A stretch of DNA of 35,381 nt, taken from contig PLBE01000245.1 of NCBI GenBank assembly GCA_003134435.1, forward strand, positions 14,877 to 50,257, read 5' to 3'. The notes under the pieces were generated by a model, which was given only the letters and a program-made list of their open reading frames with translations, did not search any database and was not told the origin of the DNA. Made by a program: the position numbers and the translations under genes. Origin of the DNA: Acidobacteriaceae bacterium. Its GTDB lineage: Bacteria > Acidobacteriota > Terriglobia > Terriglobales > Acidobacteriaceae. This document shows, in pieces, positions 18,224 through 24,818 of the stretch (its first letter is position 1; each line of letters opens with the position of its first letter).

Positions 18224-19105
18224 ATGTCCCGGAACGTGCGCTGTGGTCTGATCCAGGCAAGCAATGCGCTCAGTGCGAACCGCTCGCTGCCAGAGGTCAA
18301 GAAAGCGATGATCGAGAAGCACCTGAAGCTGATCGAGCAAGCGGCGAAAAAGAAGGTCAAGATTCTCTGCCTGCAGGAGCTTTTCTATGGTCCGTATTTC
18401 TGCGCGGAGCAGGACATTCGCTGGTACGACCTCACGGAACGGGTTCCCGACGGACCAACGACCAAGTTGATGCAAAAGATCGCGGCCAGGCACAAGATGG
18501 TGATCGTGGTTCCGGTTTATGAAGAGCAGATGCCGGGCTTGTACTTCAATAGTGCTGCCGTGATCGATGCCGACGGTAAGTATCTGGGCAAATATCGCAA
18601 GCACCATATTCCGCATGTGCACCCGGGATTCTGGGAGAAGTTTTATTTCACGCCAGGCGACCTGGGCTATCCGGTTTTTGAAACGAAGTATGCTCGAGTT
18701 GGCGTCTACATTTGTTATGACCGTCATTTTCCCGAGGGCGCGCGCGTGCTCGGATTGAATGGCGCGGAAATTGTCTTCAATCCCTCCGCCACGGTAGCGG
18801 GACTGTCGGAATATTTGTGGGAACTGGAGCAACCGGCGCATGCTGCGGCGAATGGCTACTTCGTGGGCGCGATCAACCGCGTGGGCAGGGAGAAGCCATG
18901 GAATATCGGCGAGTTTTACGGCAAAAGCTATTTCTGCAACCCGCGAGGCAAGATTGTGGCCCAGGCCAGCCGTACTAGGGATGAAGTGCTGGTCGCCGAT
19001 CTCGATCTCGATATGATTCAGGAAGTGAGAAGAGTCTGGCAGTTTTATCGTGACCGCCGTCCGGAGACTTACGGTGCGCTGACGACGCAGACGGGCCAAG
19101 AATAG
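18224..19105 (+). CDS. Beta-ureidopropionase / N-carbamoyl amidase (nitrilase superfamily)
   Basis: This 293-aa cytoplasmic enzyme is a carbon-nitrogen hydrolase. The catalytic triad is visible as E52 (LCLQELF), K126 (GKYRKHHIP) and C164 (YICYDRHFPEGAR). The segment FWEKFYFTPGDLGYPVFE is typical of the N-carbamoyl-beta-alanine / N-carbamoylputrescine amidase branch. The neighbouring dihydropyrimidinase and NCS1 transporter favour PydC-type beta-ureidopropionase: N-carbamoyl-beta-alanine to beta-alanine, CO2 and ammonia. An N-carbamoyl-D-amino acid amidase of a hydantoin pathway, or N-carbamoylputrescine amidase, remain possible. The ATG has CGGAGG at good spacing. A 22-bp inverted repeat starts one base after the stop. 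Confidence 0.9.
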   Translation: MSRNVRCGLIQASNALSANRSLPEVKKAMIEKHLKLIEQAAKKKVKILCLQELFYGPYFCAEQDIRWYDLTERVPDGPTTKLMQKIAARHKMVIVVPVYEEQMPGLYFNSAAVIDADGKYLGKYRKHHIPHVHPGFWEKFYFTPGDLGYPVFETKYARVGVYICYDRHFPEGARVLGLNGAEIVFNPSATVAGLSEYLWELEQPAHAAANGYFVGAINRVGREKPWNIGEFYGKSYFCNPRGKIVAQASRTRDEVLVADLDLDMIQEVRRVWQFYRDRRPETYGALTTQTGQE

Positions 19106-19167
19106 TTCTCAGTTCCCGGTTCTCAGTTCTCAGTGTGCCGGTTTTACTGAGAACCGGGAACTGAGAA
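19106..19167. repeat. Perfect 22-bp inverted repeat between amidase and transporter genes
   Basis: Bases 19106-19127 and 19146-19167 are exact reverse complements, separated by an 18-base loop. The arm is itself built from repeated TTCTCAGT units around TCCCGG, and the loop begins with one more partial copy. The left arm starts right after the amidase stop and the right arm ends 11 bases before the transporter ATG. There is no U-tract after it, so it is not a typical intrinsic terminator. Confidence 0.85.
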
Positions 19168-19178
19168 TTCTTACCGAT

Positions 19179-20591
19179 ATGTCTCCGACTTCGCGAATCG
19201 AATCCAGTCCGTTGTATAACGCCGACCTCGCGCCCGCGACCTCCGAGCGGCGCACCTGGGGCACCTACAGTTTTGCCGCGCTCTGGGTATCGATGTCGGT
19301 CAATATTCTGACTTACATGCTGGCCGCCAGCTTGATCCAGGGAGGGATGAACTGGAAGCAGGCGGTTGCCACCGTGTTCATCGGCAATACGATTGTGCTT
19401 ATCCCCATGCTGTTGAACTCGCATCCGGGAGCGCGCTACGGCATTCCGTTTCCGGTGCTGGCGCGGGCTTCGTTCGGAGTGCTGGGGGCGAATTTCGCGG
19501 CCGTGTTGCGTGCCCTAGTTGCCTGTGGATGGTTTGGCATTCAGACATGGATTGGGGGCGAGGCGATGAACACTTTGATCACGACCCTCGCGCCCACCTG
19601 GGGACAGGTCGCGCATGGCGATGCGATCTGCTTCCTCGCATTCTGGCTGATCAATCTGGCGGTGATTCTCAAAGGGATTGAGTACATTCGAGTGCTGCAA
19701 GGAAACAGCGCGCCGATTCTGCTGGCGGTGGGTCTCTTGCTGCTGGCGTGGGCGTACAAGTCGGCGGGTGGGTTTGGACCCATGCTAGCGGCGCCATCGC
19801 GCTTCGCGAGTTTTCCGGATTTTCTGAAGTTTCTGATCCCCGCGCTCAATGGGACAGTCGGTTTCTGGGCCACGTTGTCGCTGAACATCCCGGACTTCAC
19901 GCGCTTTGCACGCAGCCAGAGGCAACAGATCATTGGGCAAGCGCTCGGCCTGCCAACGACGATGACACTGTATTCGCTGATTGGAATCCTGGTGACTTCG
20001 GCGACAGTGGTGATCTATGGCACCGCGATCTGGGATCCAGTGCAGTTGCTGAGCCGGTTTCATTCGCCCTTGGCCGCGGTGATTTCGCTGCTGGCGATTC
20101 TGCTGGCGACGTTGAATGTAAACATCGGTGCCAATGTCGTTTCTCCGGCGAATGATTTTTCCAACCTGTGGCCGCGAAAAATCAGCTTTCGGACCGGCGG
20201 CGTAATCACCTGCTTCATGGGAATCGCTCTGATGCCGTGGAAGCTGCTGTCCAGCTACAGCACCTTCATCTTCGGCTGGCTGGGCGGTTACGCCGCGTTC
20301 CTGGGGCCGGTCGCGGGCATCATGATCTGCGACTACTTCGTGATCCGACGGCGAGTTCTGGTTGTTGATGATCTGTACTTGCGTGGTGGGGTCTACGAAT
20401 ATTCGCGTGGCTTTAACTGGCTGGCAGCCCTTGCGCTGGTTCTGGGAGCGGGCACGGCGCTGGTGGGATTGATCGTCGCTCCGTTGCGGGCGTTGTACGA
20501 CTATTCGTGGTTTGTTGGATTTGTGGTTTCATTTTGCGCTTACTATGGGCTGATGAAGCTATGGGCTGGCCCGAAAACGCCGATGTCGTAG
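19179..20591 (+). CDS. NCS1 family nucleobase/hydantoin transporter
   Basis: This 470-aa inner-membrane protein has about twelve helices and the NCS1 (Mhp1/CodB/Fur-type) pattern. The LSN signature region LASLIQGGMNWKQAVA, the substrate-site GWFGIQTWIGGEA and the cytoplasmic NIPDFTRFARSQRQQIIGQALGLP are all present. Family members import cytosine, uracil, allantoin or hydantoins with Na+ or H+. Its place between an amidase and a dihydropyrimidinase points to uptake of a pyrimidine, dihydropyrimidine or hydantoin. The ATG has no Shine-Dalgarno sequence and lies 11 bases after a strong hairpin, so translation may be controlled or coupled to the upstream gene. Confidence 0.93.
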   Translation: MSPTSRIESSPLYNADLAPATSERRTWGTYSFAALWVSMSVNILTYMLAASLIQGGMNWKQAVATVFIGNTIVLIPMLLNSHPGARYGIPFPVLARASFGVLGANFAAVLRALVACGWFGIQTWIGGEAMNTLITTLAPTWGQVAHGDAICFLAFWLINLAVILKGIEYIRVLQGNSAPILLAVGLLLLAWAYKSAGGFGPMLAAPSRFASFPDFLKFLIPALNGTVGFWATLSLNIPDFTRFARSQRQQIIGQALGLPTTMTLYSLIGILVTSATVVIYGTAIWDPVQLLSRFHSPLAAVISLLAILLATLNVNIGANVVSPANDFSNLWPRKISFRTGGVITCFMGIALMPWKLLSSYSTFIFGWLGGYAAFLGPVAGIMICDYFVIRRRVLVVDDLYLRGGVYEYSRGFNWLAALALVLGAGTALVGLIVAPLRALYDYSWFVGFVVSFCAYYGLMKLWAGPKTPMS

Positions 20592-20652
20592 CTGTCGTGA
20601 TGAGATTGCTCTTATCGCCGATGCCCGTTAGGAGTTGCAATCCTGGTTTTTA

Positions 20653-21645
20653 TCATCGAAAGGCCGGCACCACTTCCTCCTTATATTTCTCCAGTGTATC
20701 CTCTTCGTCTCCGCACATCAGATAGATGTTGAACTGAGTAACCCCTGCGCGAGCGAGCGCGCGAATTTTCTCAACGTGCGCCTCGGCGGGACCGAGCAGG
20801 CAGAAGCGGTCGGTCACTTCATCGGACACGAAGTTGCGGTTGCTGCTGTCGACTTCGCAGTGGTGAAGGTAATCGTAGTCTCCACGGTCGCGTATGTAGG
20901 AGGTCAGGGCAGGCGGGAGTTCTTCGGGCTTGTAGCGCGAAACCAGATCCACCACGTGATTCGAAACCAGGGCAGGGAACCAGCGCACGCGTTCTCGGCC
21001 GACTTTGATGTCGTCGGAAACCCAGACCGGCGCGGCGGCCATGATCTCGATTTTTCGCGGATCTTTGCCTGCGGCTTCGGCTCCTTTCTTGACGAAGCCG
21101 ATGCACCACTCGATCAGATCGGGATCGGCGAATTGCAAGACCACTCCGTCGCCGACTCGACCCGCCAACTCGAGGACTTTCGGTCCGTATCCCGCGACCC
21201 AGACCGGCGGAACGCCTCCGGTGGCCCAGCTAAGGCGCGCGGGACAGCCATCGTATTCGATTTCCTTTCCGCCTGTGAGGTCGCGGAAGGCCTTCACCGA
21301 CTCCTCCAACTGCGCGACCGTGACTGGCTTTTTGCCTAGCACTCGTCGCGAACTATCGCCGCGGCCGATGCCCAGTTGCATGCGTCCGCCGGAGATTAAG
21401 TTCAGGGTCGCAAACAGACTCGATGTCACCGTGATGTCGCGGGTCGCGGGATTGGTCACACAGGTGCCGAGGCGCATCCTCTTTGTGTTGGTCGCCATCA
21501 AGGTAAGCATGGGATAAGGTTCGAGCCAGAGGACATGGGAATCGAAGATCCAGCCGTAGTCGAATCCTGAAGCTTCCGCTTGACGGGTGAGATGGACGAT
21601 GCGGTCGACTGTCATGTCGGGTTTGATGGTGATGCCGAAGTGCAT
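20653..21645 (-). CDS. LLM-class flavin/F420-dependent oxidoreductase
   Basis: This 330-aa protein belongs to the luciferase-like monooxygenase superfamily, in the branch resembling F420-dependent methylene-H4MPT reductase. Key segments are MHFGITIKPDM at the N-terminus, LGTCVTNPATRD, SGGRMQLGIGRGDSSRR (cofactor phosphate loop) and PVWVAGYGPKVLELAGRVGDGVVLQ. It should be cytoplasmic. It sits on the opposite strand between the transporter and hydantoinase genes, within a pyrimidine/hydantoin locus. That position suggests a redox step in the same pathway, but the substrate is unknown. It does not closely resemble RutA. The ATG at 21645 is chosen over an upstream in-frame ATG because GAGGGGA precedes it and the family sequence begins there. 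Confidence 0.88.
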   Translation of the reverse strand: MHFGITIKPDMTVDRIVHLTRQAEASGFDYGWIFDSHVLWLEPYPMLTLMATNTKRMRLGTCVTNPATRDITVTSSLFATLNLISGGRMQLGIGRGDSSRRVLGKKPVTVAQLEESVKAFRDLTGGKEIEYDGCPARLSWATGGVPPVWVAGYGPKVLELAGRVGDGVVLQFADPDLIEWCIGFVKKGAEAAGKDPRKIEIMAAAPVWVSDDIKVGRERVRWFPALVSNHVVDLVSRYKPEELPPALTSYIRDRGDYDYLHHCEVDSSNRNFVSDEVTDRFCLLGPAEAHVEKIRALARAGVTQFNIYLMCGDEEDTLEKYKEEVVPAFR

Positions 21646-21800
21646 AGTGTCCCCTCGCCTGGATTGTGAGCTACGCCTCGTGTGTTCGGCAGTGTGGCGG
21701 CTGGGCGGGGCGCACAACGCTCCACCACCAAAATCGGCGCTCACAGTTTCGGTAGGTTAACATAAAGTTCTTACTTCGCCGACAAGGAGAAGACAGAGTC

Positions 21801-23192
21801 ATGGGCTTTGACACCATTATCGTCAACGGGCGCGTTGCCACCGCAACCGACACTTACACCAGCGATATTGCGATCAGCGACGGAAAGATCTCGGCCGTTG
21901 GGCAAAGCCTACCGCGTGAGAATGCGGGGAGAATTATCGAAGCGGCGGGCAGGTACGTGTTTCCGGGAGGAATCGACGTGCATACCCACCTCGACATGCC
22001 GTTTGGGGGAACGACGAGCGCGGATGATTTCGAGACTGGGACGCGCGCCGCGGCTTTTGGCGGGACGACTACTTTGATCGATTTCGCAATTCAGTACAAG
22101 GGCCAGACTCTGCGAACGGCGTTCGATGGGTGGATGCAAAAGGCTTCGGGCAAAGCGGTTTGCGATTTTGCGTTTCACTGCATCATCACGGACCTGGGGG
22201 ACGCGCAACTCGCCGAGATGAACGCGCTGGTGCGCGAAGGGGTTACGAGCTTCAAGTTGTTCATGGCGTATCCGGGCGTTTTCATGCTGGACGATGCGAG
22301 TATTTTCAAAGCGCTGCGGGCAACGGCGAAGAACGGCGGAATGGTCTGCATGCATGCCGAAAACGGGGGCGCGATTGATGTCATCGTGCAGCAGGCGCTG
22401 GCGGAAGGCAAGAAGGCGCCGAAGTATCATGCTTTGACACGTCCTACGACGGCGGAAGCGGAAGCCGTTTCGCGCGCGATTGCGCTGGCGGAAATGGCTG
22501 GAGCGCCTGTTTACATCGTGCATTTGAGTTGCAATGAGGCGCTCGAAAAAGTGCGTGAGGCGCGGGATCGCGGCCTGCCCGTCTACGCCGAGACTTGTCC
22601 GCAATATCTGTATCTCTCGCTCGAAAACTTCGATGCACCCGGTTTCGAGGGAGCGAAATATGTGTTTACGCCACCTTTGCGGGAGAAGTGGCATCAGGAA
22701 AAATTGTGGAATGGATTGAAAACCGATCATCTGCAGGTGGTTTCGACGGATCACTGTCCGTTTTGTTTCAAAGATCAGAAAGAGCTGGGACGCGACGATT
22801 TCACCAAGATTCCGAACGGAGGTCCGGGAATTGAGCATCGCATGAGCCTTATTTATTCGGGCGGGGTGGCGGGGGGACGATTCAGCGTAAACCGTTTCGT
22901 GGAGCTGGTTTCGACGACTCCGGCGAAATTGTTTGGGCTGTATCCGCGCAAAGGCACGATTGCCGTGGGCAGCGACGCTGACTTGGTGATCTTTGATCCG
23001 AATCGCAAGCATACGATCAGCGCAAAGACGCACCACATGCGCGTCGATTATTCGATGTTTGAGGGAATTCAGGTTACAGGTATGCCCGATGCGGTGCTGT
23101 CCCGCGGGCGTGTGGTGGTAGAAGGAGATAGGTTTCTGGGTCGAGCGGGGGCGGGAGACTTTCTCAAGCGGGCTCTCTACACCCAGCCCTAG
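21801..23192 (+). CDS. hydA: Dihydropyrimidinase / D-hydantoinase
   Basis: This 463-aa amidohydrolase opens dihydropyrimidine or hydantoin rings to N-carbamoyl amino acids. The binuclear metal site is visible: H61 and H63 (DVHTHLD), the bridging carboxylated K152 (TSFKLFMAYPG), H185, H241 (YIVHLSC) and D317 (STDHCPF). C-terminal segments NGGPGIEHRMSL and GTIAVGSDADLVIFD fit the dihydropyrimidinase family, and length is normal. AAGGAGAAG at proper spacing supports the ATG. It is divergent from the LLM gene across about 155 bp that should hold both promoters. With the amidase and the semialdehyde dehydrogenase it forms a reductive pyrimidine degradation route; a broader hydantoin substrate range cannot be excluded. 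Confidence 0.95.
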   Translation: MGFDTIIVNGRVATATDTYTSDIAISDGKISAVGQSLPRENAGRIIEAAGRYVFPGGIDVHTHLDMPFGGTTSADDFETGTRAAAFGGTTTLIDFAIQYKGQTLRTAFDGWMQKASGKAVCDFAFHCIITDLGDAQLAEMNALVREGVTSFKLFMAYPGVFMLDDASIFKALRATAKNGGMVCMHAENGGAIDVIVQQALAEGKKAPKYHALTRPTTAEAEAVSRAIALAEMAGAPVYIVHLSCNEALEKVREARDRGLPVYAETCPQYLYLSLENFDAPGFEGAKYVFTPPLREKWHQEKLWNGLKTDHLQVVSTDHCPFCFKDQKELGRDDFTKIPNGGPGIEHRMSLIYSGGVAGGRFSVNRFVELVSTTPAKLFGLYPRKGTIAVGSDADLVIFDPNRKHTISAKTHHMRVDYSMFEGIQVTGMPDAVLSRGRVVVEGDRFLGRAGAGDFLKRALYTQP

Positions 23193-23264
23193 CAGAGCGC
23201 TCCTGCGGAGGCGGGGATTCGCCCGCTTGGATCGGGACAAACCCGACCCCAAACAGCCTATGCT

Positions 23265-24818
23265 TTAATGCTTGTCGCCTTGCTCGACGAAGTATTTCCC
23301 AGTCTCTCCGGCAGAAAAATAGCGCGAAGTTACGGTCTTCTTGCGGGTGAAGAACTCGACCGCATCCCAGCCATGGACGTGCAGGTCGCCGAAGAAAGAA
23401 TCCTTCCAGCCGGAAAATGGAAAATAGGCGGGCGATGCGGCCACTCCGATATTCACCCCCACCATGCCGACTTCGATGCGACGGCTGTATTCGCGCACGG
23501 CGGCGCCGTTCTCTGTGAAAATCGACGTGCCATTGCCGCGGGGATCGCTATTCACCAGCGAAATCGCTTGTTCGAGCGTATCCACGTGCATCACGGAGAG
23601 TACGGGGCCAAAGATCTCTTCGCGGCATACGCGCATCTCGGGCTTGACGTGGTCCAGAATCGTTGGGCCGACAAAGTTTCCGCCGACGGGAACTCCTGCG
23701 GGACGCCTCCCATCCACGAGCAACTCCGCGCCTTCTTTCAACCCGCTCTCGATGGCTTGGTGAATGCGCTCGCAAGCGGCGCTCGAAATGACCGGTCCCA
23801 GGCTAGCTTTCGGATTCATGCCGTCTCCGGCAAGCAACTTTTCGGCGTCGGCTTTCAGGCGGTCCATGATTGCGGTTTGGGCGGAGCCCACTGTGACCAG
23901 AACGGAGCCAGCCATGCAGCGCTGGCCGGCATTGCCGAAAGCACTGCCGAGAACGTTCGAGACGGTTTTGTCGACGACCGCGTCCGGCATCACGACCATG
24001 TAATTCTTAGCGCCACCCAGCGCCTGCACGCGTTTGCCTTGTTCCGCGGCTCGGCGGTAGATGTATTTAGCAGTATTGACGGATCCGACGAAGGAAACGG
24101 CGCGAATTCCCGGACTGTCGAGGATTGCGTTAACCGCGTCATGCGCGCCATGCACTAGATTCACCACTCCGGGGGGCAGACCGATCTCTTCGAAAATGTG
24201 AAACATGATCTCCGAGGTGAGGGGAACCTGCTCGGACGGCTTCAAGACAAACGTGTTGCCGCAAACGATGGCGAAGGGCAGGAACCACATGGGCACCATG
24301 GCCGGAAAATTGAAGGGTGTGATAGCGGCGCACACGCCGATCGGCTGGCGAATGGATTCGGTATTGATGCCGCGGGCCACGCCTTCCAGGATCCGTCCCT
24401 GCATGGTCATGGGGGCCGCGCAGGCCACTTCGATGACTTCAAGAGAGCGCGTGATCTCGGCGCGGGCATCGGACAGCACCTTGCCTGATTCGCGGGTGAT
24501 GGAGGTGGCCAACTCGTCGATGCGCTGGCGGAATTTCTCCCGCAGCGCGAAGATGAACTCGGTGCGCTCGCCAATGGAACGTGTGCGCCAGTCGGGCAGG
24601 GCGGCGCTGGCGGCGGCGACCGCGGCTTCGATCTCGGCAACGCCCGAGAGCGGGAGGCGCGCCAGGACCTGGCCGTTCGCCGGGTTGGTCACGTCGAGAA
24701 GGGCGGATGCCTGCGCTTTTATCCAGCGGCCGCCGATGTAGTTAGAGAGAAGTCTCGCAGCGGATTTATCAATTGGCGTCTCGTGTGTCGCCGTTAGAGT
24801 ATTCGTTTCGGTTGTCAT
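23265..24818 (-). CDS. mmsA: CoA-acylating (methyl)malonate-semialdehyde dehydrogenase
   Basis: This 517-aa cytoplasmic aldehyde dehydrogenase has the MmsA pattern: ITPFNFPAMVPMWFLPFA, GSVNTAKYIY, ALGGAKNYMVVMPDA, and the catalytic C301 in GNAGQRCMAGS. The Glu that serves as general base in hydrolytic aldehyde dehydrogenases is replaced in the GGAKN segment, as expected for CoA-acylating enzymes. It converts malonate semialdehyde to acetyl-CoA (or methylmalonate semialdehyde to propionyl-CoA) with NAD+. Beside a pyrimidine locus, the malonate semialdehyde route from beta-alanine is the natural fit; the needed transaminase is not in the window. The start at 24818 follows AGGAGAG; the longer frame to 24920 lacks family similarity. 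It is convergent with hydA. Confidence 0.94.
   Translation of the reverse strand: MTTETNTLTATHETPIDKSAARLLSNYIGGRWIKAQASALLDVTNPANGQVLARLPLSGVAEIEAAVAAASAALPDWRTRSIGERTEFIFALREKFRQRIDELATSITRESGKVLSDARAEITRSLEVIEVACAAPMTMQGRILEGVARGINTESIRQPIGVCAAITPFNFPAMVPMWFLPFAIVCGNTFVLKPSEQVPLTSEIMFHIFEEIGLPPGVVNLVHGAHDAVNAILDSPGIRAVSFVGSVNTAKYIYRRAAEQGKRVQALGGAKNYMVVMPDAVVDKTVSNVLGSAFGNAGQRCMAGSVLVTVGSAQTAIMDRLKADAEKLLAGDGMNPKASLGPVISSAACERIHQAIESGLKEGAELLVDGRRPAGVPVGGNFVGPTILDHVKPEMRVCREEIFGPVLSVMHVDTLEQAISLVNSDPRGNGTSIFTENGAAVREYSRRIEVGMVGVNIGVAASPAYFPFSGWKDSFFGDLHVHGWDAVEFFTRKKTVTSRYFSAGETGKYFVEQGDKH

Follow-up and report, generated by a model that had tools for sequence, protein, structure and literature searches.

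A TIGR03842-family LLM oxidoreductase as a candidate F420-dependent uracil/thymine reductase in a Pyd-type locus of an Acidobacteriaceae bacterium

The stretch of DNA analysed here (the window: 35,381 nucleotides of contig PLBE01000245.1, assembly GCA_003134435.1, from an Acidobacteriaceae bacterium) carries, at positions 18224 to 24818, genes for an amidase, an NCS1-family transporter, an LLM-class oxidoreductase, a dihydropyrimidinase and a CoA-acylating (methyl)malonate-semialdehyde dehydrogenase (MMSDH). We think that this is probably a reductive Pyd-type locus in which the first enzyme is not a PydA homologue: the LLM protein (20653–21645, minus strand) would instead serve as an F420H2-dependent uracil/thymine reductase. 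A preliminary description of this DNA had proposed a uracil-to-acetyl-CoA locus with the LLM enzyme in place of dihydropyrimidine dehydrogenase, a proposal supported by the lack of any PydA above cut-off and by conserved linkage. The LLM enzyme is indeed present in the window and a dihydropyrimidine dehydrogenase is not, and the five genes lie where that description had placed them, as intact open reading frames (ORFs) whose family matches confirm the families it had named. The gene identities, the F420 operon of the host, the absence of a PydA above cut-off, the linkage and the phylogenetic profile are all direct results of computation.

Within the host assembly (5.75 Mb in 261 contigs, estimated contamination 4.4%; the window is 14877–50257 of contig C97 of this genome, G000), no PydA/PreA was found above cut-off in either the window or the genome, for which 10 of 20 first-look candidates were scored. 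The two PF01180 genes of the genome encode PyrD (L001) and a PRK07565 protein (L002), with PreA scores of 149 and 75 bits under a cut-off of 335; a PydA encoded elsewhere in the genome was rejected on this showing. The F420 biosynthesis genes that the preliminary description had suggested looking for are all there: cofG, cofD, cofC, cofE, cofH and npdG form a single run on contig C59, each over its curated cut-off, and the completeness of this run rules out a host without F420.

Scanning genome contigs for the LLM gene returned 43 loci, of which 38 were counted after the exclusion of L057–L061 (partial matches, 29–38% identity). With neighbours accepted at 40% identity or more, a dihydropyrimidinase was found near the LLM in 34 of the 38 loci, the amidase in 30, NCS1 in 27 and MMSDH in nine; at the four loci lacking a dihydropyrimidinase, the contig runs out, on one flank, at most 1.1 kb from the LLM. 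Where at least 3 kb was available on both sides, the dihydropyrimidinase was present in 23 of 23 loci, the amidase in 21, NCS1 in 18 and MMSDH in eight. The window's order of dihydropyrimidinase, LLM, NCS1 and amidase is repeated in 20 of the 38 loci. In six Chloroflexi/Chloroflexota loci (L046–L051) the amidase and LLM genes are co-directional, with the dihydropyrimidinase, where present, on the same strand. Some loci also include a class III aminotransferase: that of L044 matches NF004718 with 554 bits (cut-off 472), and proteins of its cluster occur in L044, L047, L048, L049, L051 and L024. The pairing of LLM and dihydropyrimidinase is thus beyond chance and preserved across phyla; the preliminary description had asked for the conservation of this neighbourhood to be tested. 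That description would have given way before a PydA elsewhere in the genome combined with a lack of conserved LLM–hydantoinase co-occurrence; what we found was no such PydA and a linkage that extends, in a second phylum (below), to 31 of 34 LLM genomes.

Among close relatives, LLMs 85–92% identical to that of the window come nearly all from metagenome-assembled genomes (MAGs) of Acidobacteriaceae, Terriglobales or Terriglobia. At one locus (L024, 2522–7449), in a Candidatus Eremiobacterota MAG, the LLM is 89% identical and its neighbours, in a different order, just 44–63%, a pattern that points to transfer, to recombination or to a chimeric bin. Further away, a plasmid of Leisingera caerulea carries cofG-H-D-C-E-npdG-LLM in one same-strand run (LLM 45% identical), head to head with genes for transhydrogenase subunits, an aminotransferase, a Zn-dependent hydrolase and the dihydropyrimidinase hydA, and a plasmid of Paracoccus alcaliphilus has the same cof-npdG-LLM run. 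A Haloterrigena alkaliphila plasmid (L065:5333-8987) holds two distant LLMs (30–34% identical) near hydantoinase A/B genes of the oxoprolinase type, which is another pairing of LLM and hydantoinase, with unrelated hydantoinases.

Phylogenetic profiles over 149 genomes of the window's phylum, Acidobacteriota (the same set for LLM, PreA, CofD and dihydropyrimidinase), set the LLM against PreA. The LLM was detected at E 1e-40 in 14 genomes and is at least 44% identical in 13, the remaining genome being G148, whose LLM (191 bits) falls under the TIGR03842 cut-off; a second LLM of G131 (197 bits) was left out of the counts. PreA passed its cut-off in 20 genomes, and nine more encode a shorter PreA-like protein of 285–318 bits. 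Among the 53 genomes with a dihydropyrimidinase over cut-off, 13 have the LLM, 27 have PreA or the PreA-like protein (in nine of these it is the PreA-like protein, under the PreA cut-off) and none has both. When only dihydropyrimidinases of at least 570 bits are considered, a level picked after inspection of the data (393 and 500 bits were also computed), 37 genomes divide into 13 with the LLM and 24 with PreA or the PreA-like protein, with none having both and none having neither. Two genomes, G068 and G030, have PreA over cut-off and no dihydropyrimidinase over cut-off. The LLM spans six families and eight genera, and PreA or the PreA-like protein (29 genomes) 12 families and 19 genera, with one family and no genus in common: the window's own family contains both kinds, in different genera. 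CofD over cut-off accompanies the LLM in 13 of 14 genomes, as against six of the 135 others (12 of 13 against seven of 136 if G148 is excluded from the LLM group). Fisher p-values for these comparisons, as for those in the second phylum, assume independent genomes, and the genomes are related.

In 20 of the 27 genomes, no more than 10 kb separate the gene for PreA or the PreA-like protein from that for the dihydropyrimidinase. Two cassettes are of particular relevance: NCS1, PreA-like protein, dihydropyrimidinase and amidase in G042, and MMSDH, NCS1, PreA-like protein and dihydropyrimidinase in G107, both with the LLM absent. Our main reason for assigning PreA's reaction to the LLM is the likeness in kind between these cassettes and the LLM cassette of the window. 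The short PreA-like protein recurs in Pyd-type cassettes, at L128:5291-6340 in G042 (318 bits) and at L119:5336-6370 in G293 (290 bits), under the PreA cut-off of 335; in both, the match leaves the last part of the PreA model uncovered, the part in which the ferredoxin domain presumably lies.

The second profile covered 201 genomes from the phylum to which G152 belongs (the source of locus L046, labelled Chloroflexi), taken here to be Chloroflexota. TIGR03842 was over cut-off in 34 of them, each with a dihydropyrimidinase over cut-off, which in 31 lay no more than 6 kb away. CofD was over cut-off in 30 of the 34 LLM genomes as against 85 of the 167 others, at least six genomes have cofD at a distance of 1.4 to 12 kb from their LLM gene, and in G209 npdG, cofE, cofC and cofD sit between the dihydropyrimidinase and LLM genes. 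PreA is rare in this phylum (eight of 201 at E 1e-60), so the second phylum supports linkage, not exclusion.

Several observations weigh against an LLM that reduces uracil at the head of this pathway. In the window itself the LLM gene runs on the opposite strand, towards NCS1 and away from the dihydropyrimidinase, with the start codons of LLM and dihydropyrimidinase head to head and 155 bp between them, and so is not in one operon with either. The two genes are non-adjacent in nine of the 13 acidobacterial genomes (276–280 kb apart in two and on separate contigs in seven; within 1.2 kb in the other four), and no annotated hydantoinase was found within 12 kb of the Paracoccus alcaliphilus LLM. 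Two of the seven genomes with separate contigs, G132 and G009, have amidase and NCS1 genes next to the LLM instead. Neither LLM nor PreA or PreA-like protein was found in 13 of the 53 acidobacterial dihydropyrimidinase genomes, and neither LLM nor PreA in 36 of 73 in Chloroflexota. G131 has an LLM and no CofD match. Five of the 34 chloroflexotal LLM genomes also possess the other kind of enzyme, namely a PreA-like protein of 288–294 bits in G187, G285, G293 and G309, and a PreA (606 bits) together with a PreA-like protein in G154; as a general rule, strict exclusion between PreA and LLM is therefore rejected. In G293 a single cluster even unites aminotransferase, PreA-like protein, NCS1, amidase, LLM, dihydropyrimidinase and MMSDH. 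By family, the amidase of the window could also be an N-carbamoylputrescine amidase. Finally, a search of the host genome for class III homologues found no transaminase orthologous to the query, the aminotransferase adjoining the G074 dihydropyrimidinase: the beta-alanine transaminase that the preliminary description had wanted looked for was not singled out, the genome offering five class III homologues of which the best is 40% identical to the G074 protein. Six LLM genomes, G074 itself included, have a homologue 57–100% identical to it.

The separate strands in the window, the scattered positions in the nine acidobacterial genomes and the coexistence with PreA-like proteins or, in G154, a true PreA would suit an LLM that stands beside the pathway, for instance to supply F420H2 or oxidise a side product, while an unrecognised enzyme reduces uracil. 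We regard this as quite improbable, given that the LLM and PreA or PreA-like proteins are mutually exclusive over 40 acidobacterial dihydropyrimidinase genomes and that 29 of the 34 chloroflexotal LLM genomes lack PreA at E 1e-60. The shared cluster of G293 bears on another alternative, since it pairs the LLM with a PreA-like protein as if their substrates differed: the LLM might use F420 to reduce a different N-heterocycle, for instance a product of purine breakdown like yanthine or a pyrimidine substituted at position 5, and the substrate of the locus would then not be plain uracil or thymine. An F420-dependent yanthine reductase of the luciferase family was proposed in 2025 for uric-acid clusters of Chloroflexota, according to the available portion of PMC12507026. 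Such a substrate nevertheless seems unlikely to us, as the beta-ureidopropionase-like amidase, the acylating MMSDH and, in several chloroflexotal loci, the aminotransferase fit beta-alanine and its methyl analogue; the PreA-like protein replaces the LLM in the same cassette; and the five window genes include no SsnA or xanthine dehydrogenase, for which the related loci were not searched.

The LLM protein itself is in keeping with an F420-dependent uracil/thymine reductase. It passes the curated cut-off of TIGR03842 (F420_CPS_4043; 428 bits against 295) over positions 1–329 of 329, and its ORF is intact. Its nearest solved relatives by sequence are the F420-dependent Mer enzymes (8qpl, 1z69; 143 bits). 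An AlphaFold2 model, built from an alignment of 34 sequences (mean pLDDT 89.9), was compared by VIA-align, and within the best 50 of 997 entries the top 15 by Z were all F420-dependent enzymes: Mer scored 38.6–37.3, an F420 alcohol dehydrogenase 33.5 and FGD-type enzymes 32.6–30.5, with the first flavin mononucleotide (FMN)-type entry at 29.1. This ranking of a predicted model favours F420 as the cofactor, a common fold alone being no proof of one.

The fold also raises the possibility of a RutA-like, FMN-dependent monooxygenase that opens the uracil ring oxidatively, as RutA shares the LLM fold, acts on uracil and is represented among the fold matches (6sgm, 6sgl, 5wan). We consider this highly improbable, however, because the family is TIGR03842, no RutA model stood among the best 25 of 27 NCBIfam matches of the protein (rutA itself was not looked for in the genome), and the best RutA entry reached a Z of 26.7, well down from the 38.6 of Mer; family assignment and fold rank thus both disfavour an oxygenase of the RutA type. 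Ring opening by RutA would, moreover, leave the dihydropyrimidinase without a role.

Nor is the LLM a plain Mer, which is ruled out by scores under both Mer family cut-offs (177 bits against 276 and 157 against 349) and by replacement of Glu6, the residue that the accessible text of PMC11094777 gives as catalytic in Mer. At this position the window's LLM has Thr, and the 79 sequences at least 43% identical to it (out of 83 distinct aligned) have Thr in 64, Cys in eight, Val in seven and Glu in none. The positions of Mer Asp96 (Asp97 in the LLM) and Mer residue 178 (Gln171) are invariant in all 79; the same text of PMC11094777 gives residue 178 as Gln, where the deposited sequence has Asn by alignment count. 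From the alignment, then, the ring-recognising residues look retained and the methylene-activating residue lost, which would suit a pyrimidine substrate but is suggestive at most.

The preliminary description had left it open whether the LLM reduces or oxidises a ring or a side product; of these, the evidence favours reduction of the pyrimidine ring. That the cofactor is F420 and the substrate uracil or thymine is our inference, as are the reaction's direction and which atoms take up the hydride and the proton. F420 from the cofG-D-C-E-H genes on the other contig would be reduced by NpdG with NADPH, and the LLM would bind F420H2 in a TIM barrel like that of Mer, from which a hydride would pass to the C6 atom of uracil or thymine while C5 would take up a proton. 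The dihydropyrimidinase would open the dihydrouracil ring, after which the amidase would decarbamoylate the product; transamination would fall to an enzyme encoded elsewhere, and the acylating dehydrogenase would oxidise the semialdehyde to acetyl-CoA or, from thymine, propionyl-CoA. More generally, we lean towards the view that TIGR03842 comprises F420H2-dependent dihydropyrimidine dehydrogenases, an unrelated second solution to uracil/thymine reduction in Acidobacteriota, Chloroflexota and some Alphaproteobacteria, a solution that frequently goes together with genes for F420 synthesis and may in part explain F420 production by such soil and marine bacteria. Should this be true, the first step of reductive uracil degradation would have been taken over by a non-homologous enzyme with another cofactor; TIGR03842, so far a family named by number, would gain a function that can be checked through F420 absorbance with uracil; there would be a physiological use for F420 in Acidobacteriota, Chloroflexota and Rhodobacterales; and reductive pyrimidine degradation would be possible in genomes without PydA.

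The remaining genes of the window's locus fit the roles given to them here. The amidase (18224–19105, plus strand), a carbon-nitrogen hydrolase in the PydC role, matches PF00795 (CN_hydrolase) with 221 bits. Its nearest solved chains are beta-ureidopropionases (211, 211 and 206 bits), followed by an N-carbamoylputrescine amidohydrolase (198), with a solved N-carbamoyl-D-amino-acid amidohydrolase at 106 bits; it passes no NCBIfam cut-off, the best match being TIGR03381, N-carbamoylputrescine amidase (253 bits, cut-off 410), and is, from these similarities, probably a beta-ureidopropionase. The transporter (19179–20591, plus strand), of the NCS1 nucleobase/allantoin type, scores 396 bits against TIGR00800 ncs1 (cut-off 353). 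The dihydropyrimidinase/hydantoinase (21801–23192, plus strand), in the PydB role, scores 641 bits against TIGR02033 (cut-off 393) and is nearest to solved D-hydantoinases and dihydropyrimidinases; its H61, H63, K152, H185, H241 and D317, which we take to be the metal ligands, are unchanged across 10 aligned relatives. The semialdehyde dehydrogenase (23265–24818, minus strand) scores 585 bits against TIGR01722 MMSDH (cut-off 448), and its nearest solved chains are acylating MMSDH enzymes, the top one at 474 bits.

Two of the gaps between these genes have features of their own. That between amidase and NCS1 holds a perfect 24-bp palindrome with an 18-base loop (19104–19169; RNA fold −42 kcal/mol, z −7.9), whose 21-base arm occurs once within the window and has similar arms adjoining NCS1 in L019, L022 and L027; it may be a mobile repeat, or else act as an attenuator. 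In the gap between LLM and dihydropyrimidinase (21646–21800), 16 aligned intergenic stretches keep a short AT-rich part near the dihydropyrimidinase start, perhaps its promoter.

Among the matches listed in the open-access literature we found no proposal of an F420-dependent LLM reductase for pyrimidines, and TIGR03842 went unmentioned in the open-access literature searched; the available portions of PMC8397731, PMC10143877, PMC8305020 and PMC4959651 do not propose F420-dependent pyrimidine reduction by an LLM. RutA, which opens the ring of uracil with FMN and O2, resembles the window's LLM in fold and proposed substrate but differs in its lower fold rank and in belonging to another family model. 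Mer is alike in nearest sequence and fold and in the kept Asp96 and residue 178 positions, whereas the LLM falls under the Mer cut-offs and none of its 79 relatives keeps Glu6, which gives way to Thr, Cys or Val. The chloroflexotal yanthine reductase, for which PMC12507026, in the portion available, argues from neighbourhoods only, shares the idea that an LLM can stand in for a PydA-like enzyme when an N-heterocycle is degraded reductively, but differs in substrate and partners (SsnA). There is likeness, too, to the Pyd pathway (PydA, PydB, PydC, PydD and malonic semialdehyde dehydrogenase), with which the window shares dihydropyrimidinase, an amidase probably of the ureidopropionase type, NCS1 and acylating semialdehyde dehydrogenase, and several related loci also the aminotransferase. 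The window differs from it in having an amidase of the nitrilase (CN_hydrolase) fold and, in place of PydA, whose electron donors are NADPH, NADH and ferredoxin, not F420, in the available portion of PMC7332683, a TIGR03842 LLM.

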